From Fulvia fulva (taxonomy: Eukaryota > Ascomycota > Dothideomycetes > Mycosphaerellales > Mycosphaerellaceae), in contig NC_063017.1 in assembly GCF_020509005.1 (NCBI RefSeq), positions 2,170,001-2,234,000 on the forward strand: a DNA stretch of 64,000 bases, read 5' to 3'. A program made the position numbers and the translations under genes. The notes below the pieces were generated by a model. That model was not told the origin of the DNA, made no database searches, and saw only the letters and a list, made by a program, of their open reading frames with translations. Position 1 is the stretch's first letter, and every line of letters starts with the position of its first letter. This document shows positions 10,158 through 47,899 of the stretch, piece after piece.

Positions 10158-10162
10158 ACTAC

Positions 10163-10360
10163 TATTACGTTAGAAGTATAGAAAGTTATTGTACGGGCTT
10201 ATATAGGGTTGTTTAAAAGCAGGTTATGTATTGTATATATCTATCTAGAATAGATAAGTGTTGCTCTTAAAGAGGCTATAGGTGACTAATCAGTCACCTA
10301 ATTCTTAGCGTACGTAGCCTTAAGTTTTAATAATATAATGTTGCCTATATATACGCTCGG
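10163..10360 (-). repeat. Copia-1 3' LTR, main part (left of LINE1)
   Basis: It begins tattacgttag, probably TGTTACGTTAG originally, and matches 22631 onward over about 200 bp, including the run gtgactaatcagtcac (a palindrome). LINE1 cuts it near its end; the last bases lie at 13381-13389. Confidence 0.85.
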
Positions 10361-11437
10361 TCGACGACGAGAATCACCTGTACGTGGTGTCGGCTACGAA
10401 CCTCTCGTCTAGCTACGAGAGAGCCAAGTATTCTCACGCTGGAGCGTCGTGGGCGCGACGGGCGCGTAGCGTAGGCGAAGCCGCGGCGAACAGAGGACTA
10501 CCAGCAAAACGGGTATGAAAACCATCCGACGAGCGTGTACTCGTGTCGGGAGCGAGTCCCTCTTCTTTCTGCGTGTAAGAAGGGCGCGGAACCGTGGCCT
10601 ATACGCTCGACAGGACACCTCTGGTATGAGTGCAGAATTTTCACCTCCGGAGACCGCAAACCGAGCGGGCTAAGCGACGAACATTGGACGAGCGGACTAC
10701 AGAACAACAACTGAGCGGACTATGCAACGGCGTCGAGCGGACTACGAAACAATCTGGTGTTTGCCAGCGGGCAATGCGGTGGGTAGGTGGACACGCGACG
10801 AAGCCTGTAAGGGCCTGTTGAACACCCGGTATGGGAACGAGGGTTTTGCCTGAGGCACTGCCTGTCCCGCTACACAACGCACCTAGTCTGACATGGTAGA
10901 TTGCGACGAGGAAAAGACGATAGCCTGAGCAAGGAAAAGACGGCTGTTAGGACGGGGAAAAGACGTACAATGCAAGTGGATTAGTTCTGTGATCGGGGAG
11001 GATCGAGGGCAGGGTGATAAGGAACTTCATATTGGTTAGTAGGTGGAAACGCAAGGAGTACGCTGCCCGGCGTGGTGTGTGCCCCGAGCAGACCTGCGAG
11101 GCATGGACGGCCGCTTTCTAGAGATAGGCTGCGGTAACGCGAAGGGCGTCAAAACCTGGGGCGTGGTGTACACTGGCAGCGACGGCTGACACTGTCTGTA
11201 CAGCCCGAGAGGACGGATGCGCATGTCGGTCAATAGAGAGCACTAAAGGGCTCAGGCCTATGGAGGTGGATATTGGCTTAAGGAGCAAACAGGGAGGGAG
11301 GGCGTAGAGGGAAGCTTTTGCTCCGGGCTAACCTCTCGAAACGAGGCTACACGGTGGTGCTAGATGAGTGGGAAAGCGCGGTTAAGACTTGTCACCTTAT
11401 CTCGTAGCTAGCTTGCTAAATACGATTCCTTCCTTGC
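10360..11437 (+). repeat. 1,078-bp module, copy 1 (WEIRD-like LINE 5' partner)
   Basis: The module starts GTCGACGACGAG and ends GATTCCTTCCTTGC. Copies of exactly the same length occur at 25696-26773 and, inverted, at 30098-31175. No frame exceeds about 80 codons, and the downstream RT ORF is joined in a different reading frame in each copy, so it appears noncoding. It contains two arrays of 10-mers: GAGCGGACTA at 10690, 10713 and 10735, and GGAAAAGACG at 10910, 10933 and 10956. A 7-bp hairpin lies at 10402-10421. The architecture recalls the WEIRD part of Magnaporthe MINE elements; homology is untested. Confidence 0.85.
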
Positions 11438-13165
11438 CAGAGACTTACGCAGCTTGCCGAGGACAACCACGTACTCCCAGCAACACAGATGGGGGGAAGA
11501 AGCCAGCGATCGACACTAACAGCAATGGAGCTAATTACGGAGCAAATCCAGACCCTCTGGCACTACGGCAGGAACCGAGCGGCGTCCTTACTATCCCTCG
11601 ACATCGCAGGGGCCTTCGACAACGTCTCACACCAAAGGCTAATACATATCCTACAGCAGAAAGGCATCCCCCAGTGGGCAACGTCGTTCGTCTTCTCCTT
11701 TCTCCAGGAACGGACGACATACCTAGTCCTAGGAAGGTACACGTCCGACCCGGTGAAGGCAGAGACTGGAATACCTCAGGGATCTACTCTCTCCCCTATC
11801 CTGTTTCTAATATTTATGTCGGATCTAATCCCCCTACTCACCTCTCCGCAAACCTCAGCATCGGGGTTCGTAGACGATACAAACATCCTAGCCTGGTCAG
11901 ACTCGACAGAAGAGAACTGTCGCCTCCTTGAAGATAGGCACAAGAAATGCGAGGAGTGGGCAAAGAAGCATGGTGCCCGGTTCGCCCCTGAAAAGTACCA
12001 ACTTATACACTTCAGTAAAGCGAGAACACACCATAATATGAAGGCGGCGGTAAGAATCCAAGGCTACGAGACCAAGCCATCAGCGGAGCTACGAGTACTA
12101 GGGATCTGGCTCGACCCGAAGCTAAGCTGGAATGTACAGATTAAGAAAGCCCAGAGTCGAGCGCAAGTCAATGAAGCCTCGATAAAGAGGCTTACGGCAT
12201 CTACATGGGGAGCAACATTCGACAAGGCAAGAGTAATGTATAAGGCGATCGTCAGACCAGCTATGTTGTACGGGGCACAGATTTGGGGAACAGGAGGCGC
12301 AGGCAAGCCGATCCCGAAACGGATAGAGCAACCCCTAAACAGGACACAGGCAGGCAACCTACGTAGGGTACTAGGCGCATACAAGACAACGTCAACAAGC
12401 ACGGTAGAAATGGAGACAGGAATACCACCAATCGGCCAGTACATCCGGGGAATGAGAATTCAATACGCGGCAAAGACGACAGGTTACCTAGCACAAACCA
12501 CGATCCAGGAGGCAAAGAATAAGATAGAAAGCCGCTACCGGAGAGGGGCAGGATATAGGACAAGCCAAAAAGAGGATGACCTTACGACCTTTACGGCCGT
12601 ACAGACAAGCACCGAATGGCTAGCACGAAAGGAGGAGGAGCGTAGGACTCGCCAGGCCGGCGGGAGCAAGGCTAAGACCCAAAACCTAGCGGAACAGATA
12701 GCGAGCTGCCTATGGGAGCAGGACTGGAAAAGGAAGCCCCCTAAGACAACAGGCCCGATAGCGCTCCGAGCCTTCCAGAGACACAATTACCAGCTATATA
12801 GGGACCTGACAAGGGCCGAAGCAAGCATAGCGATCCAAATCAGGTCCGAACACATTGGATTAAGGGCCTACCTGTTCAGAAGACGCGCACTAGACATCTA
12901 TAGCCCAGCCTGCCAGTGTGGCTACCCATCGCAAAACCCAGAACATATGCTACTACGATGCCCGCAGTGGGCGAGAGGCAGGGGAAATTGGAGGCACCAA
13001 GCGGGAAGGAGAGACTACAAGTCAATTATTAGGGACAAAGGCAACATTCGCCGAATCTCTCGGTGGATACTACAGCAGGGATACCTCCAGCAGTTTAGCC
13101 TCGCGAGCGAGACGGAGGAGTGGATAGACAAGAGGCGGAAGCGAGGGGGGTTGCAGATAGGGTAG
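11438..13165 (+). CDS. LINE1 ORF2 fragment: reverse transcriptase and C-terminal domain
   Basis: The frame is open from a stop at 11417 to TAG at 13163-13165, and the first ATG is at 11489 (558 residues). It enters the RT just before MGGR, has LDIAGAFDN, GIPQGSTLSPILF and the catalytic FVDDTNILAW (about residue 127), then the thumb and a C-terminal CxCx7Hx4C knuckle (CQCGYPSQNPEHMLLRC). The APE endonuclease and the N-terminal RT are missing, and I see no RNase H. This is typical of a 5'-truncated LINE joined to the upstream module. It is not expected to be autonomous, but the frame has not decayed. LINE4 carries a near-identical copy with added RIP stops. Confidence 0.85.
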   Translation, partial: QRLTQLAEDNHVLPATQMGGRSQRSTLTAMELITEQIQTLWHYGRNRAASLLSLDIAGAFDNVSHQRLIHILQQKGIPQWATSFVFSFLQERTTYLVLGRYTSDPVKAETGIPQGSTLSPILFLIFMSDLIPLLTSPQTSASGFVDDTNILAWSDSTEENCRLLEDRHKKCEEWAKKHGARFAPEKYQLIHFSKARTHHNMKAAVRIQGYETKPSAELRVLGIWLDPKLSWNVQIKKAQSRAQVNEASIKRLTASTWGATFDKARVMYKAIVRPAMLYGAQIWGTGGAGKPIPKRIEQPLNRTQAGNLRRVLGAYKTTSTSTVEMETGIPPIGQYIRGMRIQYAAKTTGYLAQTTIQEAKNKIESRYRRGAGYRTSQKEDDLTTFTAVQTSTEWLARKEEERRTRQAGGSKAKTQNLAEQIASCLWEQDWKRKPPKTTGPIALRAFQRHNYQLYRDLTRAEASIAIQIRSEHIGLRAYLFRRRALDIYSPACQCGYPSQNPEHMLLRCPQWARGRGNWRHQAGRRDYKSIIRDKGNIRRISRWILQQGYLQQFSLASETEEWIDKRRKRGGLQIG

Positions 13166-13340
13166 TCATCAGGGCAGGCCCATGACACTAGCGTACCCCT
13201 AACAAGGGAAATTTAAGACGACAACGAGGAGGAAAAGACAGGCGGGAAGGAGGAGGGGTTTTCACCAACACGGTTTCCCCTCTATATATACAAAAACAAG
13301 ATAGCATAGCTGCATAGGCCAAAGGGCACTACAACAGCTT

Positions 13341-13367
13341 AATGAAATATCTATCTATCTATCTATC
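13341..13367 (+). repeat. LINE1 3' tail, (TATC)n
   Basis: The element ends aatgaaa followed by repeated tatc units rather than poly(A). The same kind of tail ends LINE2, LINE4 and LINE5, and each is joined to a target beginning TATATA. Confidence 0.85.
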
Positions 13368-13380
13368 TATATACGCTCGG

Positions 13381-13400
13381 ATCGCGACACACCCCCTTAG
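13381..13400 (-). other. Copia-1 3' LTR edge and polypurine tract
   Basis: The LTR edge atcgcgaca (to 13389) is followed by cacccccttag. Read on the minus strand, CTAAGGGGGTG directly precedes TGTCGCGATC, so this is a polypurine tract next to the 3' LTR. Confidence 0.75.
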
Positions 13401-14330
13401 CTCGTGCGCTAGAGTAAATGAGCTGATTTCTATATAATCGCGTGCACCCTATCATAACTACCCCCCTACCTATAGTAGTGACGTCAGGCCCTCGGTATTA
13501 CTACTACTATAGTAAGGGTAAGTTAGCTATTTTAAGTAAAGTGAGCTAAGGTGAGTAAGGTGAGCTTTGTACCCCTTCCCTTATTCCTCACTTTCACTAC
13601 TGCTATTATTACCTATATAATAAAGTATAGATTATATAACTATTACCGGTAAGATAGCTTAGGTAATAGTCCCGTTATACGGACTTTTACTTAAGTATAT
13701 AATCATCTTACCTACCGGTAAACATTAGAGGTCCTAAGTTCAATCTAGGGGTAGCCTTAGTCCTATCGTATACTTAAACATATATTGTCGTCCGCTCAAC
13801 TTATTAAATTGTCCGATAATTACTCTATACTAAGTTATTTTGCTCCGGCGGATAGTAAGAGAGCTCGCTCTACCCCTAGGGAGTATAAGATACTAGTTAG
13901 TGGCGTAATGTACTAGGCTGTCTACGACAGAGCTTGCACTATATAAGGTGTAATAGGGCTCTAATAGGTAATACCGGAGCAACGGTATCGGAAAGTTAAA
14001 AAGGTACCTTCGGGGTGCCTTACTTTCTACACTTTTAAAGGTCACATCACCTTAGGGTAGTGACACCTTTTTGTTTTGGGCAAGTGTGTACTATATATAA
14101 GGTGCGAAAGTAGCGGATAATATAGTGATAAGGTAGTAGTGTTATTACTAGTAGTAAGTTAGAGGCGTTTCTCGCTTTCTAATTAGACGCGCTACTTTTA
14201 TCGCGCGCGTACGCTACTACTAGTAATAGGGGTGTTTCTCGCCCTTACGCTATTAGCCAATAGGAGTCCGAGAAACACCTATTAATAATAGTACTAGGGC
14301 CGTACCGGTGAATAGTAGATGCTTTGCCCT
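13401..14330. other. Noncoding 3' region of Copia-1 with fold-back repeats
   Basis: About 0.9 kb between the pol remnant and the 3' LTR shows no coding sense. Two inverted repeats stand out. One has arms at about 13643-13672 and 13681-13722 (ttaccggtaagat against its complement). The other has arms at 14221-14241 and 14269-14293 (ggggtgtttctcg against cgagaaacacc). They may be remains of small inserted elements. Confidence 0.45.
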
Positions 14331-16734
14331 AGCTTCGTTGTCGTCTATAGTATTAGTAGCTACTAGTAGCCGTGTTTTACGCCTACTAGCGCTTCTAGAG
14401 AGGTGTCCGTAAAGATGAAGCCGTTCGGTGTTCGTTTCGAGATAAGGTAAGGCCGCTACTACGGGCTTCTTAGGCGTCTATTGGCCTTTTACCTCCTAAT
14501 ACGGCTATAGAGGGCACTAAGGTACGTAGGTCTACGCCTTCCTTAGCTATATTAAGTAGCTTAACGAAGTGCTTGTGCTTCTATAGTAGAAGTAGCTTAG
14601 TTAGCCCGTCTATAGGCATGTCGTTAGTACTAAGATACTTGATCTTAATGTCTCCGCGCTAGTCTCGCTATCGGAGCTAGTAGTAGTAGATATTAACGTA
14701 GCGTAGCTTCGTATTAAGCTTTTGCCCTTATTAGTTGACAAGGCGGATAGTCTACGTGTTATTAACACGCCTTAGAGGGCTGTTACCTCTTCGTATAGGG
14801 CTTCGATCGCTCTTATCGCGATAGGCGCGTGTTCTAGGTCGTATACCGGACATCTAGCCGATAATTATATTAGCGACTATGATCTAGTATATTATATAGT
14901 AGAAGTAGGCCGTTCGTAGGCGCTTTCTATTCTCTATAACTATATAGTTAGACTCCTCTAGTGTATAGAGCTCTAGCTCTAGGGGGAAGAGTTATATATT
15001 AGACGCGTTGTTTATTAACGCGTCTTCTAGTAGTATAAATATAAATAGATATAGCTCGCGATTAGGGTCCGTATTACCTATAATCTCCTTACGGTTCTTT
15101 ACGGTAAGGGCATCTATTATCTACTACTATAGGGTGTCGTAGTAGTTAGTAGTATTGTGTACTGACTGCTATATATTGTCTTAAGTCACGTGATCTGTTA
15201 CGTACTCGATTTGCCGGTCCTTCTAGTTATATATTACTAACTCGCGGTATTACGGCTAGTATAGTTCTTATCTAAGGAGCTTTTAGTAGGCGTCTCGAGG
15301 TTATTAGATATACGGCTACTAAGCCTATTCTTCTACCCCCTCGGTCTATACTATGTCTTGCTCGTAATAAGCGATATATAGGTCGTAGTATTGTTTAGGC
15401 TCTTTAGCCGGTTCCGCTATTACGATGTTCTCGATAGGGGTCGTATACCCTACTGTTAGGCGTAATAGGTTATAGAACGTGGTCTTATCGAAGAGGACGT
15501 CCTTGACTCGTATAACCCTATCTTTTAATAGGTCCTATACGCGGTAGATATTAGTAGAGTCGTATCCTATAAGGTAGCCTATAAGCGCTCTCTCTTAGAG
15601 TTTCTTGCTCTTACTAGGCTGATCTAGTCTATAGATAAACACGTATATAAGGGAGATATATACTACTATATAACCTACGTTCGGAATTCGTCCTATTACT
15701 AATTCGAATAGGGTCTTCTAGCCCTTTAACTAGATAGGGGATCGCTAGAGGATATATACCGCTACTATAGTATATTCTAGCTAAAGCTTTTCCGGTAATC
15801 GTACGTAGATACAAATAGTTCTACTTATAGTAATAATTAGAGCTCCTACTCTTTCTACTAGGTCCTACGTAGGCGCGTACTCCGCGGTTGCGTGCTATTT
15901 AATCTTATTGTTATTAATGACTAAGCGAAACACCTTCCTAATAGCGGGCTTATTATCGCTATAGAAGTATACGAACCTACGACTAATGAAGTTAATAAAG
16001 CTTAGTAGGCTATTAAAGTAAGCTAATACCGATTGCTAATCCCTATTCTTAATAGTGAACTAGAAGTGTCTATAGGTATCTAGATCGTAGAAGTAGACGA
16101 GGTACCTATTACCGTTATAGGCGATAGTGAATTCTGCTAAGTCTATAGCTATATGGCCGTATAGGGTCATTACCCTAATAGGCTAAGACCTATTATACAC
16201 CTTATAAGCTTTGCTAAGCCTATATGCTCTATAATGTATAGTAAGGGGTGCGCTTAGACTATCGTTAATAATCACCCCCTTAACTCTAAGCGGTAACTAC
16301 TTAATACGTTTAGCGCTAATATAACTAAAGATTTGATACTACTAGCGGCTAGAGAGCTTTCGGTGTTTAATAGGGGTCCTACTAGACGTAGCTATACCTT
16401 TAGTGCCCCTAGTACTATTTATAACTACGAGAACGGTACGGTTACTATCCTCTTAAGTAGTTAGAGATACTACGCTATTAGTAGGTTCATCGCCGATGTT
16501 TATACCCCTACTAATAGTACTGATCAAGTACGCATTACGTATCTTTTTAGTGACCTTTAGTAGTACTAGGCCCTCTTTTATAGGCTATTAGTAAATGACG
16601 GGTGACTTAGGTAGTATAACTACCTTAAAGAAAGGGATTGTACTAGTAGGGCGGTATAGGTCTATCAATCTAGTATCGTTATACTACATTAAATTGCTAC
16701 GTCCGTACTACTAGAGTCCGGCTATTTCTATACG
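14331..16734 (-). pseudogene. Copia-1 pol remnant: integrase and RNase H ends
   Basis: On the minus strand the right part encodes an integrase C-terminal region; an open piece at 15629-15814 contains the end of integrase. At about 14550-14710 the RNase H C-terminus reads RGDIKIKYLSTNDMPIDGLT and then KHKHFVKLL, a Copia hallmark. Between them, about 15400 to 14700, I find linker-like and RNase H sequence but no RT core or YVDD box. Stops are of the RIP type. LINE4 separates this part from gag. Confidence 0.7.
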
Positions 16735-16991
16735 TATATAAGAGATAGATACTACTCCTGATTAACGACCCATCTCGGGTACTAGGACGAGGACCATTCA
16801 ATCGATAGCCCTTATCAAGACGAGCAATCTACTCAAGCAGTAGCGACCCGCCTGCGCTAGCGGCGGCGCAATTGTGATACAAAAAAACCCCAAAACCGAG
16901 GTCCCCTTCCCCTGAAGGCAGACCCTAGAATTGCGGAGTTGCGGAGGACAACTGCCCAATTAGGAAGCGCGACCCCGAACAACAGCGAAGG

Positions 16992-18341
16992 ATGGCAACC
17001 AACGAGAGCTATAGCCTTACGAACATTCTGCACCAAGAGTCAAACCGGGGAACAAACCAAGAAAAAACCTAGGACACAAGCCAAGGCCCACTATACAGAA
17101 AGCAGAGGCCAACGACAAACAACACAGCGTGGACGACCCTATATACGGAGGCGGAGAACTTACTAGGGGATGACGAACACCTAGCCCGGGCATATAAGAA
17201 CACTATAGCACAGCTACTAGGAGCGCTAAAAGCGCTATCATACCAAATCCCGAAGACAATCCAACAAGTAACACAGAAGGCAGCCCAGAAACCAACTACG
17301 TGGGCAACAGTAGCAGCAGGCAAGAATCAACCCCCTCCGAAGGCAAGTAAGGCGGTACGCCTATACATTACTGATCCGGCGGAGAAACAAGAAATCGCAG
17401 CCCTAACAAGCAAGGAGATTGTCGACAGAATCGGCCAAAAGGAGGTAGTTGGGGCGAGGGTAGAGGCAACAGGCGTAGTAAGACTCTTTACCGCACAAGA
17501 GTCTAATAGACGAAAGCTAGAGACCTATAAGGAGTGGACTACTAAAGTCGCGAAGTCGGCACGAGTCTCCTACCAATAGTATACCGTCATCGCCCACGGG
17601 GTCCCTAGGACATTCAAGGTCGAAGACCTTCCCCACCTCCAAGTACAGAACCAGAACACCTCCCCAGGAGTACGACTAACGAAGGCGGCATGGCTGCACA
17701 AGACAGTAGACCGAGAAAAGACGCATTCATCGCTTATTATTTGGGTAGAGACAGCGGAACAAGCTAACCAGATATTAGACAATGGGCTATTCTGGAACTG
17801 CGAGAGAATGGACACGGAGATCCATCAGAGCAGCCATAGGGTACTACAATGCTTCCAATGCCAACAGTACGGTCACATAGCCTCAAAATGCGGGGAGAAG
17901 ACCCCAAGGTGTCCTCACTGCGCAGGCCCACACCAGGGAAGGGAATGCCCAAAAAAGGAGAGCAGGTGCGCATGCTGCGGCAGAAGGCACCCAGCGTATT
18001 CAAGCCAATGCCCGGCTAGAATAGTAGCACAAGAACGAGCGAGACAAGCAAGGATCTCTACACTAGCTAGGTACCCCCAACGACAGCAGGAGGGACCTAC
18101 CGTGTCCAAGGGCTTCGAGCCGAGCAAAAGGAAGAGGGCAGAAGAGACGAACAAGGGAACCTAACCGCAAACGCATCCACCTCCCGGTAGGCCTCGACAC
18201 CTTAACCGGGCTGCCAACGAACTAGGCCAAATGCGAATCTTTGGGGCGCCCCAGCGGCCCTAGGGCCAGCCGGATAGCGAGATACAGGCTCAGGAGACAC
18301 AGCAGGTCAGCACGGAAATGGACCTCACGGATAACGAATGA
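16992..18341 (+). pseudogene. LINE4 ORF1 (gag-like RNA-binding protein) with RIP stops
   Basis: The frame runs ATG 16992 to TGA 18339-18341, 449 codons, with at least four internal stops, each explicable as CAR to TAR (for example near 17072, 17577 and 18162). The C-terminal half has three zinc knuckles: CFQCQQYGHIASKC, CPHCAGPHQGREC and CACCGRRHPAYSSQC. Such ORF1 proteins bind the element RNA and form the ribonucleoprotein. Its stop overlaps the ORF2 start as ATGA (18338-18341). Confidence 0.8.
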
Positions 18342-20808
18342 TACTATACGACGACATCACTATCGTACAGTACAACGTAAACAAAAGTAGGGACAAGGTC
18401 CAGCGCCACTTTCTATAAGAGCTAGACCCGCTACGGCACCACGTTATTGCGGTACAGGAACCATAGATCAACCCCTACGTAGGACTCCTAGCCACTTGTA
18501 ATGACCGGAGATACCACACCCTAATCGCGGGCTAACGAGGCGTCATCCCGAGGACATGTATATACGTAAGCAAGACTATAGACCTTGAGTCGTGGAAGGT
18601 TATACTACCGCAGCAGGGCAACCTAGGAGACATAACATCAATCCAGATCGACACGACATAAGGCCCTATCCAGATCCATAACGTTTACAACCCGCCACCG
18701 CGGGGTCGGACGAGTAGGGAACTAGGAACCCTCGCCCACCTAGAGCGGACCCTAAGCCAAGACACGAAGCAAGTACTCCTCGGCGACTTCAACCTCCACC
18801 ACCCACAGTGGGGACTCGAATTCACTCCCCCGCACGCATTTCTAGGGGGGAAGCTACTGGACATAACCGCACGCTACGGAATGGCCTTAGTGTAACACCA
18901 AAGGGAACAGAGACGTGGAAGGCCCGTACTAGTGCAAGCACGATCGACCTATGCTTTCTATCACGAGAACTTGAAGAGAGACTAGTCCAATGCCGACCGA
19001 ACTACGCGCTAGAAGCCTCCTCAGACCATATCCCTATCCAAACGACGCTAGAGGTGAAGGCGATAGAGGAGCCAGCAAACGAACCACGCCGTAACTGGAA
19101 GAAGGCACGCTAGGACGACATAAGAGGCTTCCTAATAGCGAACCTACCACAGCATAGAGAACTCGAGACGACAGCTCAGCTAGATCAAGCAGCGGAACAG
19201 ATTACCTCGGTCATATGGCAAGCAGCGGAACAATACACGCCGTTACTCCGGCCCTCAACGCAGCAGAAGGCCTTCTGGACCCCTGAATGCTCTACGAAGC
19301 AGAAAGGCATCCCCTAGTGGGCAACGTCGTTCGTCTTCTCCTTTCTCTAGGAACGGACGACATACCTAGTCCTAGGAAGGTACACGTCCGACCCGGTGAA
19401 GGCAGAGACTGGAATACCTTAGGGATCTACTCTCTCCCCTATCCTGTTTCTGATATTTATGTCGGATCTAATCCCCCTACTCACCTCTCCGCAAACCTCA
19501 GCATCGGGGTTCGTAGACGATACAAACATCCTAGCCTGGTCAGACTCGACAGAAGAGAACTGTCGCCTCCTTGAAGATAGGCACAAGAAATGCGAGGAGT
19601 GGGCAAAGAAGCATGGTGCCCGGTTCGCCCCTGAAAAGTACCAACTTATACACTTCAGTAAAGCGAGAACACACCATAATATGAAGGCGGCGGTAAGAAT
19701 CCAAGGCTACGAGACCAAGCCATCAGCGGAGCTACGAGTACTAGGGATCTGGCTCGACCCGAAGCTAAGCTAGAATGTACAGATTAAGAAAGCCCAGAGT
19801 CGAGCGCAAGTCAATGAAGCCTCGATAAAGAGGCTTACGGCATCTACATAGGGAGCAACATTCGACAAGGCAAGAGTAATGTATAAGGCGATCGTCAGAC
19901 CAGCTATGTTGTACGGGGCACAGATTTGGGGAACAGGAGGCGCAGGCAAGCCGATCCCGAAACGGATAGAGCAACCCCTAAACAGGACACAGGCAGGCAA
20001 CCTACGTAGGGTACTAGGCGCATACAAGACAACGTCAACAAGCACGGTAGAAATGGAGACAGGAATACCACCAATCGGCCAGTATATCCGGGGAATGAGA
20101 ATTCAATACGCGGCAAAGACGACAGGTTACCTAGCACAAACCACGATCTAGGAGGTAAAGAATAAGATAGAAAGCCGCTACCGGAGAGGGGCAGGATATA
20201 GGACAAGCCAAAAAGAGGATGACCTTACTACCTTTACGGCCGTACAGACAAGCACCGAATGGCTAGCACGAAAGGAGGAGGAGCGTAGGACTCGCCAGGC
20301 CGGCGGGAGCAAGGCTAAGACCCAAAACCTAGCGGAACAGATAGCGAGCTGCCTATGGGAGCAGGACTGGAAAAGGAAGCCCCCTAAGACAACAGGCCCG
20401 ATAGCGCTCCGAGCCTTCTAGAGACACAATTACCAGCTATATAGGGACCTGACAAGGGCCGAAGCAAGCATAGCGATCCAAATCAGGTCCGAACACATTG
20501 GATTAAGGGCCTACCTGTTCAGGAGACGCGCACTAGACATCTATAGCCCAGCCTGCCAGTGTGGCTACCCATCGCAAAACCCAGAACATATGCTACTACG
20601 ATGCCCGCAGTGGGCGAGAGGCAGGGGAAATTGGAGGCACCAAGCGGGAAGGAGAGACTACAAGTCAATTATTAGGGACAAAGGCAACATTCGCCGAATC
20701 TCTCGGTGGATACTACAGTAGGGATACCTCCAGCAGTTTAGCCTCGCGAGCGAGACGGAGGAGTGGATAGACAAGAGGCGGAAGCGAGGGGGGTTGCAGA
20801 TAGGGTAG
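18338..20808 (+). pseudogene. LINE4 ORF2: APE endonuclease fused to RT second half
   Basis: ORF2 starts at ATG 18338-18340. The endonuclease shows VQYNVNKS, IAVQEP, LLGDFNLHHPQWG and later SSDHIPI, with several CAA/CAG-to-stop changes and a one-base frameshift near 18890. At about 19290-19300 it jumps from WTPECSTK directly to QKGIPQW. In LINE1 the latter is preceded by the RT N-terminal region, so roughly 0.9 kb of RT is missing here. FVDDTNILAW and the C-terminal knuckle remain. TAG codons interrupt the rest. Confidence 0.8.
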
Positions 20809-21019
20809 TCATCAGGGCAGGCCCATGACACTAGCGTACCCCTAACAAGGGAAATTTAAGACGACAACGAGGAGGAAAAGACAGGCGGGAAGGAGGAGGG
20901 GTTTTCACCAACACGGTTTCCCCTCTATATATACAAAAACAAGATAGCATAGCTGCATAGGCCAAAGGGCACTACAACAGCTTAATGAAATATCTATCTA
21001 TCTATCTATATAAGAGATA

Positions 21020-22467
21020 AAGTTTATGTAAAAGCCTAGGTAGTAAGCCACATCTAGCAAGGTGAATAAATGGCCCCTAATTGATATATAAACACGCCCT
21101 AACGCTACAATTAGAAAGGTAGTTGTTCTAGCCTAGATTTTTAAGGTAGTAAGGCGCTCTATAATAAACTCTATACCCTCCTAGTCATAATGATTAATTA
21201 TATAAGTGTCTGAATAGTTATTATATACCTAGCAATCCCTAAAGTTAACGCTCAACTTGCTAATTAAGCTAGAAAGAACAGTAAGGCCAATAAAGCCCTT
21301 ATTGCTTAGTAATGCCTTCTTCGTATTAGTAATAGCCTTGTTACGTTCCTAGTCCTTACGATTATTACGATTTAACACGCCAAGTAGACGCTCGCCGTCG
21401 TCGCTTAAGTAGTAGTTAATAAAGTTTTTCTAGTACTTCTTCTACTACTCTCAGCGCTAATCCTTTACTAGGCGCTTATCGGGGTTAATTATATCGTATA
21501 AGAACAGGCCCTTATAATAGGTGTCCTTAGGCTCGTAGGTGATGATCTAGTAGCCGCTTAGCCTATTATTATCCTTATCTTTATTCTTGTCGCCGCGGCT
21601 ACTACTACGACCCTTATTACCGCGGCTATTACTACGGTTATTACTACGGCTACTACTACGGTCACCCTCCTTTTAACTAGTACCTATAGGTGCTATTTAA
21701 TCCTCTACTAAGGTTTCTCCGGAGAAGGTTACGAAGACTAATCGACCGTTAGTTATTACTAGTACGGTGTCGCGTATCTATTCGAGGGAACGCTTAGTAA
21801 GCTTTTGTAGTAACATTTTATTACGCTTCTACTCGTTATATAGAGAAGTACCGTAGGCTAGAGCCTACTTCTACTAAATAGTAAGTAGGAAGTGTCTACT
21901 AAGGTCGCCGTACTCGGCGTAGTTATACTTAAGTATCTTAGTCTATAAAACTAACTAGTCTAAGTACTAGTTATCGATTCTACGTACGCTAGCCTTCTAA
22001 AGCCTAGATAGCTTAAGCGTAAGCTACCGCTTACGTAGTATATCGTCTAGACTATACTGATCCTTAGGAGCCTAGTATTTCGCTCTAAGGGTGTTCTAGC
22101 CGTATATTAGCTCTTACCCTAGCTCTATCGTCGTACGGATAAGGTAGGTAATAAGCTTTAATCGCGTAGTAGTAAAGATATCGTATATCCGTTACCTTCG
22201 GTCTACGTCTATTTGTCGTAGCTTAATAAGGTCTCTTAATATAGCGTCTCCTACCGTATACGCTTATTAGATTTCCTTAAACGTTAAGTAAGTAGGCTCT
22301 ATTAGCTCGTTACTTAGTTAGTAAGGATCTATATACTTCTAGACATTTAAAGACTCTACGTAGAGCTCTAGCTAACGGTCAAACTTGTCCTATTAGTTAT
22401 AGCTCTTTAGAACTACGGTACCCTAAGGTATAGTACCGGTAGTTACCGGGGTCTCGGTAGTAGCCAT
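21020..22467 (-). pseudogene. Copia-1 gag-protease remnant
   Basis: The minus strand opens at ATG 22465-22467 with an alanine/threonine-rich start (ATTETPVTTGT). A long readable Copia gag follows (KFDRQLELYVESLNV), with few stops until about 21700, then a serine/arginine-rich stretch and a degraded protease/pre-integrase region near 21200. LINE4 interrupts the continuation into integrase. Confidence 0.7.
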
Positions 22468-22609
22468 AACTATAAAATAGGTTATAGGCTAGTGAAAGTT
22501 CTACGTGGGTTTACTAGGCCTAGGGGATACTACTATACTAGTTGTAGTAGTAGTGCTATAACAATATAAACTCTACTTTAGGGCTTCCTTAACGTAGCGA
22601 ATATTAGTA

Positions 22610-22630
22610 AGCGCTAACCGGGCTTATAAC
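22610..22630 (-). other. Copia-1 primer-binding site (half-tRNA-iMet type)
   Basis: Just inside the 5' LTR the minus strand reads GTTATAAGCCCGGTTAGC. Undoing one RIP change gives GTTATGAGCCC, complementary to the anticodon stem-loop of initiator tRNA-Met, as in Drosophila copia. Copia-2 has the same site unmutated. Confidence 0.65.
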
Positions 22631-22837
22631 TATTACGTTAGAAGTGTAGGAAGTTATTATACGGGCTTATATAGGGTGTTTTAAAAGCAGGTTATATATT
22701 GTATATATCTATCTAGGATAGACAAGTGTTGCTCTTAAAGATGCTATAGGTGACTAATTAGTCACCTAATTCTTAGCGTACGTAGCCTTAAGTTTTAATA
22801 ATAGGATGTTACCTATATATACGCTCGGATCGCGATA
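22631..22837 (-). repeat. Copia-1 5' LTR
   Basis: This uninterrupted 207-bp LTR matches 10163-10360 plus 13381-13389. TSD actac follows at 22838-22842. It contains the palindrome gtgactaattagtcac. Confidence 0.85.
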
Positions 22838-22842
22838 ACTAC

Positions 22843-23285
22843 TCGTCCGATTTAGCGCGTTACGACACCTATAACACCCTCTATATTCCCTATACGATAC
22901 CCGTCTCGACACCTATCTCGAAGGCTCTTAAACTCGGCTAGTAAGGGCTTTATACCTATCCGAATATACTACTTAGTATTATATCCTCCTACGCTTACCT
23001 ATATAGATAAAGAGAAGGAGCCTAAAGAGATACTACTACTAGATAATAGAACTTTCGACTTATTCGAGGACCTTATACTATAGCTGTTAGGATAGGCTCT
23101 TATATAGGGCTTCGACCTTAAGAAGTAGAAGTAGAAGAAGATAGATAACGATAGTCCTTTAGGCGATCGATATAGGCTCGAGATATACTATTATTATAAG
23201 GGTTTACTTAATAAGCAATTATAAGCTAAATAGGCTACTAAGCTAAGTAAGTACCGGTCTAATAAGTATAGATATCTATAGAAGA
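22843..23285. other. RIP-mutated sequence of unknown origin, between Copia-1 and Gypsy-A2
   Basis: TpA-rich, CpA-poor DNA continuing the target in which Copia-1 inserted. One plus-strand frame reads through stops as a charged, lysine-rich sequence (DNRTFDLFEDL near 23040), but I cannot assign it. No gene is claimed. Confidence 0.4.
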
Positions 23286-23290
23286 TTACT

Positions 23291-23474
23291 TATTACGGGT
23301 AGCCCGCGACCCCTTACTATAGCTACGTCGGCCCGGCTGAACCGCGGACCTTCCGTATTGGGTTAGCGCGGCTTAGCTTTACTTTATAACTTCGCCGCGC
23401 CTCGCGCTCCTCTTTCGTAGCTTCGTAGAATAATAACTCTCTTATTTAGACCCTACGGTACGCGCGCCCTTATA
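23291..23474 (+). repeat. Gypsy-A2 5' LTR
   Basis: This 184-bp LTR is the reverse complement of the Gypsy-A1 LTRs, beginning tattacgggtag and ending gcgcgcccttata. The five bases before it are ttact; the matching TSD copy should lie beyond the window. Confidence 0.85.
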
Positions 23475-23639
23475 GTTTATTCTACTACCCTACCTAGATC
23501 GCGGATCTAGGTAAGGGACGCGTAATAGTAGGAACAGATAGAACTATAGAACTCGAAGAACGCGTAGAGTCGTATTAGAATATAGAACACGGTAAGGCGT
23601 ATAGCGCCTAAATACCTAGAGAACGTAACGCGGCGACAT

Positions 23640-25690
23640 TATTAGTAGGTAGTCGCGCGCTCGTAGATAGTTAGGATATAGGCACCGTTACGCCTCCCCC
23701 GAACCTAGACAATATAACTTTATAAATAGCGAACGGCGGCATACTACCACTACCTAAGCCTAAGGGCAAAAGTAAGTAGCGTATATCTCTTTTCCCCGAC
23801 CTCTCCTCTTTTCCTTAGAGTTAGATATAGGACGATAACCGGCGGGTTATAGTAGATACTAGTGTCGCGCTATAATAAGAGATTAATAAAGCTTACTAGA
23901 AGGCCTTCGAGCGAGAAGAAGGTAGTAAGATTGACTTTATAGAACTGTTCGAGTTTAAGCTCGAAGAGAACCTAGACGGCGACCTAGACGAGGTATATCT
24001 ATTACTTAACGAGTTAGAGCACATTCTTATATCTGAATACCAGAATGTTATACTAGACAAACTTACGACCCTTATATCCTAGTACCCGAAGACTACCTAC
24101 GACTTCGTACTATAGGTAGTAAATATAGCGATTACTAAAGGTAGACAACTCGATATAATAGAGCGAGCTAATAACCTCTAGAACACCTAGTATACTACGC
24201 TATATACCGAGTATAACCGTACCTATAAGATACTACGAAGCGAGGAGGCTATAATATAGAAGATGGCCGTAGACCTAAAGAGTAAGAAGGATTATAACCT
24301 AGTAAAGTTATAAGAGGTAGAGAAGAAGTATAGGGAGGCTAATAACCTATATAAGCAATTTAGCGAGATTTATAAAAAGGAGAAGAAGAAGGTATAGGAT
24401 ACCAAAGCTAAGAACTAGGCTCTATAGAAGGAGGTTAACGATCTAAAGACTCGACTCTAAGCTACTAAAGACACTATATAGAATAGAGATAGGGGCCGCT
24501 CTAGTCGCCGACCCTCCTATTTACCTCCGCGTAAGACTTTACTCGAGTAGCTAATACGTAAGTATCGTAAAGCTACTAGTAGAGGCGGCGGCGGCAGAGG
24601 TAGTAGTAACGATAATAATAACGGTAATAGTAATAACAACCGAGGACGTAATAGAAACCGTCTACGACCTAATAATAATAACGGTCGCGACTCTCGAGCG
24701 CGTAATACCCGTATATAGACTCCCCTAACCGAACTTTTAGAACACCTATTCACTATTAACCGTACTCTAATACGTAGTATTGAGGTTAGTAAGGGCGTGC
24801 CTAACCCGAAGTACTTTAAGAACGATAACGACCCTAACTTCGACAGTTAGTATAGTAGCGTGCTTCTTAAGCTAACTATAACTACTTTCCGCTCCGAGGT
24901 AGACGGCCTACGTTTTATATATAGATAGACATAGGGTGACCCTTAGAGAAGTATTAAGCCGAGGATTCCCGTACCTAGATAACAATTATTTAACGAGTTT
25001 AAGACTAGTAAAGAACTACTAGATTAGATAACGCGCTAGTACGGTACCCGTAACGAAGGAACTAAGGCTATAGTTAATATCGCTACTTATAAGTAGGAGT
25101 AGGACGAGACCTTTATTACCTTCTACGCTCGCTACTCGAAGCTACGTACTTAGATAGAGTAGACCAACGAGACTAAGCTAATACTATTTCGTAACCGCCT
25201 AAACCGTAAGTACTTTATTAAGACTTTCGGTAATAGAGAAGTAGATAGACGCTTATACGATATATAGGATATTATTAAGGAATATATAGTATTAGATAAG
25301 AGCTTCTACGAGACCGACCGACTATATCTATAGAAGGAGCGCCTACGTAGTAACCCTAATTCGAATAATAACGGCGTATAGGGCGGTAGTAATACCGTAG
25401 GCGCCGTAGCTACTAGTACGACCGCTATAACTATCTAGCGACTACTATAATACGTAGGTACGAAGAAGAAGGAGGACCTACTAGTTTACTTATAGAACCT
25501 ACCTTTATTAAACCGTAAGTAGCGTAAGGACCTTAAAAAGTAGGGTAAGTACTACCGCTACCGTATAGGCTCGTACGTATTAACGAACCCTAAATGCCCG
25601 ATATATAGTTACGACGGCGACTACCGCCCTCTACGTCTACGAAATAACGCGAACGCTAACCCGAACCTTAGCTCCCTTACTACTAACCTA
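23640..25690 (+). pseudogene. Gypsy-A2 gag remnant
   Basis: The plus strand reads as the counterpart of the gag region of Gypsy-A1, with a long acidic/lysine-rich helical segment followed by an asparagine/arginine-rich segment near 24600 and a degraded knuckle region near 25550-25640 (GSYVLTNPKCPIYSY). Stops are numerous and of the RIP type. The sequence ends abruptly at the LINE3 5' end. Confidence 0.65.
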
Positions 25691-25695
25691 TAGCG

Positions 25696-26773
25696 GTCGA
25701 CGACGAGAATTACCTATACGTAGTATCGGCTACGAACCTCTCGTCTTACTACGAGAGAGCTAAGTATTCTTACGCTAGAGCGTCGTAGGCGCGACGGGCG
25801 CGTAACGTAGGCGAAGCCGCGGCGAATAGAGGACTACTAGTAAAACGGGTATAAAAACTATCCGACGAGCGTATACTCGTATCGGGAGCGAGTCCCTCTT
25901 CTTTCTACGTATAAGAAGGGCGCGGAACCGTAGCCTATACGCTCGATAGGACACCTCTAGTATAAGTATAGAATTTTCACCTCCGTAGACTATAAACCGA
26001 GCGGGCCGAGCGACAAATATTAGACGAGCGGACTATAGAACAATAACTAAGCGGACTATACGACGGCGTCGAGCGGACTACGAAACAATCTAGTGTTTAC
26101 TAGCGGGCAATACGGAGGGTAGGTAGACACGCGACGAAGCCTATAAGGGCCTATTAAGTACCCGGTATAGGAACGAGGGTCTTACCTAAGGTACTACCTA
26201 TTCCGCTATATAACGTACCTAGTCTAATATAGTAGATTACGACGAGGAAAAGACGATAGCCTAAGTAAGGAAAAGACGGCTATTAGGACGGGGAAAAGAC
26301 GTATAATATAAGTAGATTAGTTCTATAATCGGGGAGGATCGAGGGTAGGGTAATAAGGAACTTTATATTAGTTAGTAGGTAGAAACGTAAGGAGTACGCT
26401 ACCTGGCGTAGTGTGTGCCCCGAGCAAACCTACGAGGTATAGAGGGCCGCTTTCTAGAGATAGGCTACGGTAACGCGAAGGGCGTCAAAACCTAGGGCGT
26501 AGTATATACTAGTAGCGACGGCTAACACTATCTATATAGCCCGAGAGGACGGATACGTATGTCGGTTAATAGAGAGCACTAAAGGGCTTAGGCCTATAGA
26601 GGTAGCTATTAGCTTAAGGAGTAAATAGGGAGGGAGGGCGTAGAGGGAAGCTTTTACTCCGGGCTAACCTCTCGAAACGAGGCTATACGGTAGTACTAGA
26701 TAAGTAGGAAAGCGCGGTTAAGACTTATTACCTTATCTCGTAGCTAGCTTACTAAATACGATTCCTTCCTTAC
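25696..26773 (+). repeat. 1,078-bp module, copy 3 (RIP-mutated)
   Basis: Length is identical to copies 1 and 2 although most CpA/TpG sites have become TpA, as expected if only point transitions have occurred. The 3' end ttccttac corresponds to ttccttgc in the others. Confidence 0.85.
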
Positions 26774-28068
26774 TTAGACTCGCTACGATAATAAACGAAG
26801 GGGCGATAGCGTCGTAAAAGTAAAGAGCGCCCTCGAAAGGCGGCGAACGAAGAGAAACGCGCGGAGCGACGACGCGCCCGGGAGAAACGAAATACGGAGA
26901 CTACTTACTATAACGACTATAATAACCGCAAGCTACTAACTAGAAGAACTAGTATACGAAACACGGTATAGATACGGTAGAATATCCCGCGATTATATAC
27001 GAAATTATAGCTACCCTCGCGAGCGCTAATCTACCCTACGAACGCGCGATCTATAGCCTCCTCGAGAGCTTAGCTAAAGCGATCTAGGAGCTACTACGGG
27101 CGACGAAGGCGCTAGCGCTAGTAAAGGAAGTAACGAACGCGGACCTCCTACGGGAGATCTAGGCGCTAGAAAGAGCTAGGCCGGCAATATATACCTAAGT
27201 AGCTATAGTAGCCGTAGAGTAACTAACGTACCGCGTTAGGCCAGTTTAGCGTAAGGTCACGATCTATATAGACAACCCTAAAGAAAGAGAGCGGGTAGCG
27301 GTACTATCGTACTAACGCCTCGTAGAGTAGGCGCGCTAGGCTAGTAAATAAGACATTATTATAGCCTAGAAGCTAAAGAGTAGAGACGTACGCTATACGC
27401 TCGTAACTATAGCGGGGAGACCGACGCTACTATAGAGCGTAGGCTAGGCGGTCGAGGTACTAAACGCGAAGAGCGTAGCGCCGGTCGCGCTAGTATACTA
27501 GGCCCTTATATACGGTGTCCGAGTTAATACCTTCCTAGTAGATACTAGCCCGGTAGCGATAGGAGAGGCTATCGTAAAGGACAACTAGGCTACTATCCTA
27601 GGCCTCGTTATTACCCGGGCGTACTAGCTAAAGAAGCCGGAACTAATAGAGCGGAAATACTCGTTACTCGTACTCGCGTTTAAGTATAATAGCTAGAGGA
27701 TCTAGGCTATAGAGAAGGGACTAGTCCTAGCCTACTCGTACTACTACGTTAAAAAGCACGACTATACCTATATAGTAACCTAGTGCTTCCGTTACTAGGG
27801 ATTCGGGTATACTATAAAGTATTATAGGTAGGAGACCTACTACGGCTACTACGCGAAGGTATATAATACCCGCGAATACCCCTAACCTAAGATAAGTAAG
27901 TACGCTAACTACGGCGGAGACTATAAGGCGTAGATAGGCGGATATAGAGTAAAGAGGTAGGTAGCGGAACAGGCGGTAGGAGCGCGCCTAGGTATACGCT
28001 AGGAAAGAGGAGGAATAGCGATAGTACTATACCGTCTAAGAGCCGACGCCGACGGCTTCTAGTATAGA
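26774..28068 (+). pseudogene. LINE3 ORF1 remnant (gag-like), first part
   Basis: Read through RIP stops, the plus strand gives a LINE ORF1 with a central segment (VTIYIDNPKERERVAVLS) and a C-terminal knuckle region in which cysteines and histidines have become tyrosines, for example CFRYQGFGYTIKYYRQ. Reading continues across the Gypsy-B insertion into 59871-60150 without change of frame. The sequence differs clearly from LINE4 ORF1, so it is another family. Confidence 0.65.
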
Positions 28069-28072
28069 CGAC

Positions 28073-28282
28073 TAACTACCCTAGTAAGTAAGGGCGCGCC
28101 TAGTAACCTTGAGATAGCTTGCGCGTAGGTATATATACTTGTCGGTCCGCGGGCCGTAAAGTATATATAGTAATCTTAAAAAAAGATAATAAATCTGAAA
28201 TTTTTAGATTCCCGTATCTCCGCCTTATAGAGAGATTCCTCGTAAATCCCACTTCCTACTAAGGTCGCCTCCTAACTATATA
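28073..28282 (-). repeat. Gypsy-B 3' LTR, left portion
   Basis: It matches 59539-59748 and includes the run of A residues (cttaaaaaaagataat). LINE2 interrupts it; the rest lies at 31176-31298. The paralogous LTR at 59539 carries the uninterrupted site. Confidence 0.85.
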
Positions 28283-28482
28283 GATAGATAGATTATTCAT
28301 TCGCCTGTTTTAGTGCCCTATGGCCTATGCAGGTCTCTCGCTATTTAGGTCTATTTGTGTAGGTAGGAAACCCGATTAACGGATGAAAACCTCCTCGTCT
28401 TTGCCCTCCTCGTTCTTTCCTGTCTTGTCCTTTCGTTCTCCTTCCTTTAGGGTACGCTAGTGTCATGGTTGTTACCCTATGA

Positions 28483-30097
28483 CTACCTTGCCCGTAACCC
28501 TGGTGATGTCCTCCTCTCGATTCCCTTTCTCCCTTCTGTTTCCCCGGCTCTTCTCTCTCTCTCCCTCCTCTCTATCCACCTTTCCGTTTCTACTGCTAGG
28601 GAGAATTGCTCTAGGTAGTCCTCGTTAAGGATCCATCTTGTCACTCTCCTTATATCTTGTCTGTCCTGGATGATGGCCTGGTATTGCCTGTCTCTTGCCT
28701 TCGCCCTCCACTGGCTTCTCCCTTTTACCCACTTAGTACAGTTCAGCACCATGTGCTCCGGGCTTTGGGATAGGTAGCCACAGGGGCAACGTTTGGAATC
28801 GTATCCTGGGACTCTTCTTTGGTGCAAGTATGCTCTCAGCCCAATGTGCTCAGAGCGAATCTGGATAGCTATGCTTGCTTCCGCCCTCTTCAGGTCTTTA
28901 TAGATAAGGTAGTTATACCTCCCGAAGGTCCTGGCCGCTAGTGGGGCTCCTGGCCTCACCGGTTTTTGGTTCCAACGCGTTTCCCATAGGTGACCTGCGA
29001 TCCTTTCTGCTTGGCTTTGCTTCTTTTTCCCTTTGTCCCCTGTGTTAGCTTGCTCCCTCAGAGCTTCTCTCTGTTCAAGGGCTGCTAGGATTTCCTGTGA
29101 TGTTTTTAGGTCTGCTTCCTTCTGTGGGATCATGTGTGGCCGGTTGGGTCTTCTCCTCCTCTCCCACTGGGTTCTTATCCTTTGAGTAGCTGCTTGGATG
29201 GTTCCCTGGGCTGGGTATGCTGATGTCTTCTCTGCGTATTGACACCTCATGCCCTGGAGGTACTCCCTGATGGGGGCTGTACCTGATTCCATTTCTATTG
29301 TCCTGTGAGGGGTTGACTTGTATGCCCCTAGTACTCTCTTTAGGCAGGCTGCCTGCGCTCTGTTGAGGGGGTCCTCAATTCTCTTCGGGATGTGTTTTTC
29401 CGCTGCCCAAATTGCTGCTCCATATAGCATTGCGGGCTTGACAATGGCCTTGTACATGGTCTGGGCCTTTGTGAAGGTCGCCCCCCAGGTTGACGCAGTG
29501 AGTCTCTCGATTGATTGTCTGTTGGTGTCCGCTCTCGCTTGCGCCTTCTTCACTTGTGGTCCCCAGCTGAGTTTCGGGTCTAGCCATATCCCAAGGACTC
29601 TGAGTTCCCTTGTAGGATGGGTCTCGAACCCCTGGATTTTTACTAGTGCTGCCAAGTTGTGTTTTGTCTTTGCCTTGCTAAAATGGATAAGTTGGTACTT
29701 GTCCGGTGCGAATTTTGCCCCATGCTCTCTTGCCCACTTTTCGCATTGTCTATGTCTCTCCTCTAGGAGTGCGCAGTTTTCCTCTGTGGACCCCGACCAC
29801 GCTAGGATATTTGTGTCATCCACGAACCCCGATGCTGAGGTGTTTGCTGTTTCTAGGAGTGGGGTCAGGTCGGCCATAAAGAGGAGGAACAGAATTGGGG
29901 AGAGTGTAGAGCCCTGTGGGATGCCCGTGTTCGCAATTGGGGTCTGCGGGGCTTTGAAGGACCCTAGGAGGATCTGGGTTCTGTCCTTAAGGAATGACTG
30001 CACAAAGTGTACTATCCAGGCTGGGATGCTTTTCATTCTGAGGATGTGTAGGAGCCTTGCGTAGGACACATTGTCGAAAGCCCCTGATATGTCTAGT
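28483..30097 (-). CDS. LINE2 ORF2 fragment: reverse transcriptase and C-terminal domain
   Basis: The open frame runs from the module junction (in frame with a stop about 20 bases inside the module) to TAG at 28483-28485, about 530 residues. It starts at the RT motif ALDISGAFDN, continues through GIPQGSTLSPILF, FVDDTNILAW and LGIWLDPKLSW, and ends with the knuckle CPCGYLSQSPEHMVLNC. There is no ATG at the N-terminal edge of the homology, as expected for a truncated fragment; the endonuclease and RT fingers are absent. It resembles the LINE1 protein throughout but differs at many positions. No RIP stops are present, unlike the Gypsy-B LTR around it. Confidence 0.85.
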
Positions 30098-31175
30098 GCA
30101 AGGAAGGAATCGTATTTAGCAAGCTAGCTACGAGATAAGGTGACAAGTCTTAACCGCGCTTTCCCACTCATCTAGCACCACCGTGTAGCCTCGTTTCGAG
30201 AGGTTAGCCCGGAGCAAAAGCTTCCCTCTACGCCCTCCCTCCCTGTTTGCTCCTTAAGCCAATATCCACCTCCATAGGCCTAAGCCCTTTAGTGCTCTCT
30301 ATTGACCGACATGCGCATCCGTCCTCTCGGGCTGTACAGACAGTGTTAGCCGTCGCTACCAGTGTACACCACGCCCTAGGTTTTGACGCCCTTCGCGTTA
30401 CCGCAGCCTATCTCTAGAAAGCGGCCGTCCATGCCTCGCAGGTTTGCTCGGGGCACACACCACGCCGGGCAGCGTACTCCTTACGTTTCCACCTACTAAC
30501 CAATATGAAGTTCCTTATCACCCTGCCCTCGATCCTCCCCGATCACAGAACTAATCCACTTGCATTGTACGTCTTTTCCCCGTCCTAACAGCCGTCTTTT
30601 CCTTGCTCAGGCTATCGTCTTTTCCTCGTCGCAATCTACTATGTCAGACTAGGTGCGTTGTGTAGCGGGACAGGCAGTGCCTTAGGCAAAACCCTCGTTC
30701 CTATACCGGGTGTTCAACAGGCCCTTATAGGCTTCGCCGCGTGTCCACCTACCCACCGCATTGCCCGCTAGCAAACACTAGATTGTTTCGTAGTCCGCTC
30801 GACGCCGTTGCATAGTCCGCTCAGTTGTTGTTCTGTAGTCCGCTCGTCCAATGTTCGTCGCTTAGCCCGCTCGGTTTGCGGTCTCCGGAGGTGAAAATTC
30901 TGCACTTATACCAGAGGTGTCCTATCGAGCGTATAGGCCACGGTTCCGCGCCCTTCTTACACGTAGAAAGAAGAGGGACTCGCTCCCGACACGAGTACAC
31001 GCTCGTCGGATGGTTTTCATACCCGTTTTGCTAGTAGTCCTCTGTTCGCCGCGGCTTCGCCTACGTTGCGCGCCCGTCGCGCCCACGACGCTCCAGCGTG
31101 AGAATACTTGGCTCTCTCGTAGCTAGACGAGAGGTTCGTAGCCGACACCACGTACAGGTGATTCTCGTCGTCGAC
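30098..31175 (-). repeat. 1,078-bp module, copy 2 (inverted)
   Basis: Nearly identical to copy 1 and exactly the same length. Its outer end (31175) abuts the TSD, so the module forms the true 5' end of the inserted molecule. It ends ttccttgc and is then joined to the RT codons for LDISGAF. Confidence 0.9.
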
Positions 31176-31190
31176 CCTCCTAACTATATA

Positions 31191-33574: not shown

Positions 33575-33593
33575 GCTTTGAACGCCCTCTACG
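33575..33593 (+). other. Gypsy-C putative primer-binding site, possibly self-priming
   Basis: Only 19 bases separate the LTR from the gag ATG. TTGAACGCC (33578-33586) is the exact complement of GGCGTTCAA (33377-33385) close to the predicted 5' end of the mRNA. This is the arrangement of Tf1-type self-priming, known also for several fungal Gypsy elements. The first three bases after the LTR do not pair, so the assignment is tentative. Confidence 0.5.
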
Positions 33594-46950: not shown

Positions 46951-46965
46951 AGGCGTTGTTTATAT

Positions 46966-47883: not shown

Positions 47884-47899
47884 GGCGTTGTTTATATAG

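Follow-up and report, generated by a model that had tools for sequence, protein, structure and literature searches.

Fusions of a 1.08-kb noncoding module with LINEs of at least four families in Fulvia fulva, probably made by template jumping

The genome of the ascomycete Fulvia fulva contains several hundred insertions that carry one and the same noncoding sequence of 1.08 kb, here called the module, and at nearly all sampled junctions its 3' end is joined to a long interspersed nuclear element (LINE). The module was noticed in a 64,000-bp stretch of contig NC_063017.1 (positions 2,170,001 to 2,234,000 of the forward strand; NCBI RefSeq assembly GCF_020509005.1), hereafter the window, and was followed from there through the genome (67,169,167 bases in 14 contigs). 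It is very probable that these chimeras arose when LINE reverse transcriptases (RTs) of at least four families jumped, repeatedly and in a manner resembling the MINE elements of Magnaporthe, onto one particular noncoding RNA at its 3' end.

Direct comparison within the window bore out the central observation of an earlier note that had been made from the sequence alone. Three module copies of exactly 1,078 bp each, with common first and last bases, are located at 10360..11437 (plus strand; copy 1), 25696..26773 (plus strand; copy 2) and 30098..31175 (minus strand; copy 3), and the sole deviation is that copy 2 ends in TTAC rather than TTGC. Base differences number 19 between copies 1 and 3, 105 between copies 2 and 3, and 120 between copies 1 and 2. 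In copy 2, 102 of the 120 differences from copy 1 are of the type produced by repeat-induced point mutation (RIP; C to T before A, G to A after T), and this copy is thus heavily mutated, copy 3 only lightly; copy 1 represents a variant termed 212G. The note had also taken the module to be noncoding, which agrees with the lack of any stop-free stretch over 101 codons. The G+C content is 57%.

Copy 1 is joined to a 5'-truncated LINE of family A (11438..13367, plus strand), which retains the downstream part of the RT, ends in an (ATCT)n tail and is broken at GCC*CAGAG, where the asterisk marks the break. For the other two copies the note had named the right kinds of partner but had exchanged them. 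It is the minus-strand copy 3 that leads into an RT, that of a 5'-truncated family D LINE (28283..30097, minus strand) whose RVT_1 domain is present from LDISGAF onward (reading frame 28483-30123), and the plus-strand copy 2 that leads into what is probably LINE open reading frame 1 (ORF1). This latter stretch (26774..28255, plus strand) is RIP-mutated, has a zinc-knuckle-like reading and gives one weak translated match (E 8e-5), which is to part of a LINE B ORF1; no match to the proteins of LINE families A-D was found for it.

The target site duplications (TSDs) that had been claimed for copies 1 and 2 were found for copy 1 (TATATACGCTC at 10348..10358 and its 3' counterpart at 13368..13378, plus strand). 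For copy 2, neither a 3' end of the insertion nor a TSD was found, and it is copy 3 instead that has a pair (TATATAGTTAGGAG at 31177..31190 on the 5' side and 28269..28282 on the 3' side, minus strand). A single G precedes copy 1 (10359, plus strand), where its origin is ambiguous because the target also has a G, and another precedes copy 3 (31176, minus strand). A related unoccupied target site is present at 22812..22827 (plus strand), and the 199 bp upstream of it share 93% identity with the copy 1 flank.

A search of the whole genome, which the note had suggested, extends the module far beyond its three copies in the window. A genome-wide pattern count that tolerates G-to-A and C-to-T changes of the RIP type finds 515 5' ends and 490 3' ends. 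Exact ends number 144 and 177, respectively, and because the reversed patterns give 0, these copies are not due to chance. Among the best 40 of 656 candidates from a DNA search, 39 copies align over module positions 1-1078 and one over 1-1077; one further match is a partial module copy that abuts a full one. The first 100 exact 3' ends include 76 that pair with an exact 5' end; the module measures 1,078 bp in 75 of these pairs and 1,073 bp in the other. Of the 24 others, 20 were inspected: 16 begin at the same base with point changes, and one is shifted by 6. The 20 best-preserved modules, which were selected as such, differ from one another by 0-2 bases, and window copies 2 and 3 as well as the second modules in loci L013 and L017 are more mutated than these.

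Long stretches were viewed for 20 of the 40 scored copies, window copy 1 included, which together with the window make 23 module loci. Their LINE parts belong to at least four families, A to D, that are 72-76% identical where they can be aligned, and chimeras within one family are 99.3-100% identical, RIP-mutated copies excepted. LINE A has endonuclease and RT domains, and the D copy in the window has an RT. The note's claim that several LINE families are used is therefore upheld, and a tabulation of junctions by family and breakpoint, which it had proposed, adds many breakpoints. The 113 junctions tabulated comprise 24 from the long loci and the window and 89 from short loci, which come from the first 100 exact 3' ends (contigs C1-C6), with about 380 of the 490 ends unviewed. 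At a threshold of at least 85% nucleotide match over 150 bases, 48 junctions fall to family A, 29 to B, 5 to C, 4 to D and 2 to the module itself, which leaves 25 outside the references. Of these 25, seven are collinear within one RIP-mutated family B copy in L020, another seven have 97-100% matches in a part of L022 that continues into family C, that of L080 falls in the leader of a LINE A copy in the window, and nine have a LINE protein match (E ≤0.002) or a common start with such a case (L049 and L050 with L048). In total, 112 of the 113 junctions are assigned, 110 to a LINE and 2 to another module copy. The remaining one is that of window copy 2, whose partner is probably also a LINE; it is left out of the assigned count because it offers only the zinc-knuckle-like reading and a weak match. 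LINE/Tad1 is described as a major repeat class in F. fulva isolate Race 5 (PMC10823647).

Two groups of loci deserve separate mention. In L077 and L082, viewed over 250 bp, the junction apparently lies just upstream of an ORF1-like start, so that the module possibly heads a complete coding region of a LINE, as a leader swap would produce. On contig C1, loci L048-L050 (8826062-8835432) have an identical LINE junction, lie on one strand and are spaced by about 4.67 kb; possibly this is a tandem-duplicated chimera.

Module and LINE were inserted as one piece, as the earlier note had argued. TSDs of 11-16 bp enclose the two together in 19 of the 23 loci, the four loci without TSDs being L015, both L017 modules and window copy 2. 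The LINE tails are (ATCT)n, and the TSDs mostly start with or near TATATA. A G precedes the module in 25 of 25 starts viewed and in 15 of 16 starts with point changes, and because it is missing from the 3' TSD copy in 13 of the 19 TSD-bearing loci, it belongs to the insert. We infer that this G is the first base of the RNA or a copy of its cap. No solo module was seen among the viewed ends, and no exact module end has an ATCT tail within 30 nt.

The LINE breaks follow a short rule. It was read from the 79 of the 113 junctions that have a donor reference with an identity of at least 94%; these yield 48 distinct contexts (46 LINE, 2 module). Four pairs of contexts, merged by eye, are single sites in diverged subfamilies, which reduces the number to about 44 sites. 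Immediately before the break stands a C in 48/48 contexts, the base preceding it is C or T in 48/48, and the third base is A or G in 45/48, giving RYC* (R, purine; Y, pyrimidine); GCC is found in 11/48. The base after the break is C in 35 contexts, T in 7, A in 4 and G in 2. In comparison, 11-13% of positions in the LINE sequences are preceded by YC and 6-7% by RYC. A C follows 76% of the 33 used RYC sites that were located in the references versus 30% of the 705 unused ones, and predicted folding energy is alike in the two groups for four choices of stretch. The idea, put forward for Magnaporthe, that hairpins lie at the break sites accordingly finds no backing in predicted energies. The module RNA would end in UUGC, and one C is common to donor and acceptor in 48/48 contexts, so the exact joint cannot be placed within this common C. 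Only two cases of module-free 5'-truncated LINEs were usable for comparison, which is too few; both start A*CCCAG, and one has a TSD. In the window, a module-free 5'-truncated LINE of family C at 46964-47885 (minus strand) has a 14-bp TSD and starts A*CCCAG, not after YC.

Sequence variants of the module bear on how often the fusion took place. Variant 212G has 6 copies genome-wide, and the five that were viewed sit at five different breakpoints: GCC*CAGAG (window copy 1), GCC*ACTTG (L010), ATC*CCTCGAC (L037), ACC*CC(C/T)AACGA (L097) and ACC*ACGATCC (L105). Variant 517G has 7 copies, of which five were viewed, three joined to LINE A at three sites (L024, L045, L086), one to LINE B (L076) and one forming the outer module of L023; variant 517A has 140 exact copies. 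Likewise, a single breakpoint can hold different variants, because GCC*CAGAG carries 212G in the window, 517G in L024 and neither in L028, and ACC*CCTGGAC carries 517G in L086 and neither in L011, L021 and L022. Family A itself is divided into subtypes A1 (L010, L018) and A2 (ten others), with 11 fixed differences in the compared columns, and L010 (A1) and L016 (A2) have a common breakpoint. Because variants span several breakpoints and single breakpoints hold different variants, the fusion occurred many times independently, with hot spots.

Modules are also joined to modules. Locus L023 has a full module, then module positions 165-1078 and then LINE A, all inside one TSD pair, and in L081, which was viewed only in part, a module end is joined to module position 297 onward. 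Both internal breaks read ACC*, from which the acceptor would again be the 3' end and the donor a module RNA. L023 combines two variants, with 517G in the outer and 517A in the inner module. If this locus is a single insertion event, two different source RNAs must have been used, which hints that the RNA is supplied by more than one copy.

We infer from genomic DNA that the module RNA exists in free form, that the RT jumps to it and that the steps below follow in the order given. This RNA, of which the module would be the DNA copy, would be noncoding and about 1,079 nt long, with fixed 5' and 3' ends and no poly(A) at the latter. While a LINE RNA undergoes target-primed reverse transcription, the LINE RT would stop beside YC, mostly at RYC*C, would jump to the UUGC-3' terminal nucleotides of the module RNA and would copy this RNA through to its 5' end. 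The joint cDNA would then be inserted as one piece between TSDs. Such events would have recurred independently in at least four LINE families and at hot spots, and an occasional second jump would start within a module RNA and land on the 3' end of a further one. Template switching of the MINE type had been put forward in the earlier note, and the fixed ends, the TSDs around module plus LINE and the GCC-like breaks all support it.

Several points weigh against this reading. No source gene of the putative free RNA was seen. Sampling by exact 3' ends selects intact ends, and 3 of the 20 inspected modules without an exact start begin elsewhere than at the expected base. The break rule has exceptions: the third base is T in three of the 48 contexts (TCC), and 34 of the 113 junctions were left out of the motif count for references that were diverged, RIP-mutated or missing. 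Most of those that are readable at lower identity fit the rule; L058 and L100, as first read, do not, the latter reading ACT* against an 84% reference. In the copy at C1:3571163, the module stops at base 1077 and passes into LINE A at the third base of the LINE part of L010; either this junction is off the rule or a small deletion followed later. Junctions that recur, one of them 8 times, may partly be re-amplified chimeras. Finally, an RNA fusion made beforehand by cutting and ligation would leave identical DNA.

This last possibility, in which a cut at RYC* gives LINE RNA a new 5' end that is ligated to the module RNA's 3' end before the chimera is retrotransposed, would explain the strict donor sequence through the specificity of an RNase, and it fits the observation that used and unused RYC sites differ in the following C and not in predicted folding. 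RtcB ligation has been named as one option for mammalian chimeras (PMC13174262). We nevertheless consider it improbable, for it requires an extra ligase step and makes an accident of the C common to donor and module end in 48/48 contexts, which is what a jump with one-base pairing would be expected to leave. Trans-splicing of module RNA to LINE RNA would make the fixed module end a 5' exon border. However, 3' splice sites end in AG, and the donor breaks end in YC in 48/48 contexts, so this motif contradicts trans-splicing, to which we assign a negligible chance even though it has been discussed for L1 chimeras with mRNAs (PMC13174262).

Two further explanations would dispense with repeated fusion. 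One or a few master chimeras might have formed once and then been copied as ordinary retrotransposons, as the LINE A junction seen 8 times and the 14 of 48 contexts seen more than once might suggest. As a full account this is very unlikely and indeed contradicted: 34 contexts were seen once, 212G and 517G are each found at several junctions, one junction holds several variants, and one is common to both LINE A subtypes. Copying of masters may still contribute to the commonest junctions. Alternatively, the module might be the native 5' untranslated region of a LINE and the junctions internal deletions, an outcome that the earlier note had recognized would undo its proposal. The module does stand at the 5' end of the insertion, adjoining the TSD, in the long loci. 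Yet a module-free LINE A copy in the window (16748..21006, plus strand; 884-bp internal deletion at 19298), flanked by 13-bp TSDs at 16735-16747 and 21007-21019, begins directly after its TSD with the leader GATACTACTCC. Because this one copy has its own, different leader, the module is not the native 5' end of family A. Furthermore, LINE sequence extends for 1,500 bp above the L010 breakpoint in 8 of 12 LINE A loci (counting the reference), and the other four reach module junctions, two at that breakpoint and two (L123, L129) further upstream. With one module common to four LINE families as well, this explanation is scarcely credible, and for family A it is contradicted.

End-to-end template jumping by the R2 RT is reportedly an in vitro observation. 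The R2 enzyme passes from one RNA to the 3' end of the next (as cited in PMC2104539), and by analogy the LINE RT would do the same here. The kind of event is already known from MINE and from mammalian U6/L1 chimeras. In Magnaporthe grisea, MINE elements are chimeras of WEIRD, a 1,113-nt RNA, with the LINE MGL, and 33 chimeras were surveyed there for template switching (PMC2104539). The resemblance covers several features: a full-length noncoding RNA of about 1.1 kb stands 5' of a 5'-truncated LINE in the same orientation, TSDs surround the whole insertion, break sites recur, a double jump is described, no solo RNA copy was found, and GCC or a similar sequence precedes the break, as RYC* does here in 45/48 contexts. 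The differences are that the base after the break is mostly C here and A/U in Magnaporthe (break rule GCC*A/U, Table 3 of PMC2104539), that there are about 500 copies rather than 33, that at least four LINE families take part instead of MGL and Mg-SINE, and that F. fulva has module-module joints. The earlier note had likened the module to WEIRD as well as to MINE. The MINE-type kind stands; for identity with WEIRD there is no support, the module matching two published WEIRD primers at 11/20 bases each and a MINE primer at 13/20, none better than shuffles. Since this comparison involves primers only, the mismatch is a weak sign that module and WEIRD differ.

Mammalian U6/L1 and other small-RNA/L1 chimeras also have a noncoding RNA on the 5' side of a LINE, the two being inserted as a unit; those with U6, U3 and 28S are mostly in sense orientation, and ligation or template switching has been proposed for them (PMC13174262). 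Unlike these, the F. fulva junctions, sampled by module sequence, all involve one unclassified RNA of 1.08 kb, and their breaks obey a short rule. An open-access literature search, with subscription papers mostly outside it, found no report of such chimeras in F. fulva. The findings suggest that MINE-like capture is neither restricted to Magnaporthe nor tied to one RNA sequence, and they point to a route by which several LINE families can gain an identical new 5' end. Because one genome offers several hundred acceptor copies, many donors and a short rule, the choice of jump site is directly testable.

What the module RNA might be was approached by elimination. Rfam lists no known noncoding RNA in window positions 10000-12000 at E up to 1, and one module 21-mer and one 23-mer have no exact match in prokaryote genomes and viral contigs, respectively. 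A telomerase RNA was rejected, as neither module strand contains TAACCC. An RNA polymerase III origin, and with it a short interspersed nuclear element (SINE), was likewise rejected, because there is no B box and no strict A box (two loose A-box matches were found) and there are three TTTT runs; the absence of a LINE-like ATCT tail within 30 nt of the exact module ends speaks against a SINE too. The first 998 nt of the module fold no better than shuffles on either strand, leaving a strong global fold unsupported. Near both ends of the module is a 12-nt perfect inverted repeat (module positions 50-61 with 1041-1052; window 10409-10420 and 11400-11411), which could close the RNA into one domain. 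Tentatively, and with somewhat more doubt than conviction, the module may be viewed as a selfish RNA, a LINE parasite opposite in strategy to a SINE, that offers its own 3' end to an RT stalled at RYC*. On the same tentative view, the complete module in each chimera can in turn give rise, through transcription and trimming, to this RNA. Alternatively, the RNA may belong to the host.

The window also contains features that are separate from the module. A gene for an MFS protein is found at 336-1811 (minus strand), and its product shows 96% identity, across 95% of the protein, to one from F. fulva. Frames resembling gag and pol of a long terminal repeat retrotransposon, as judged by eye from the translations, span 33582-39076, and a stop-free stretch of 1,571 amino acids at 49840-54555 (minus strand) resembles, again by eye, a Copia-type polyprotein.

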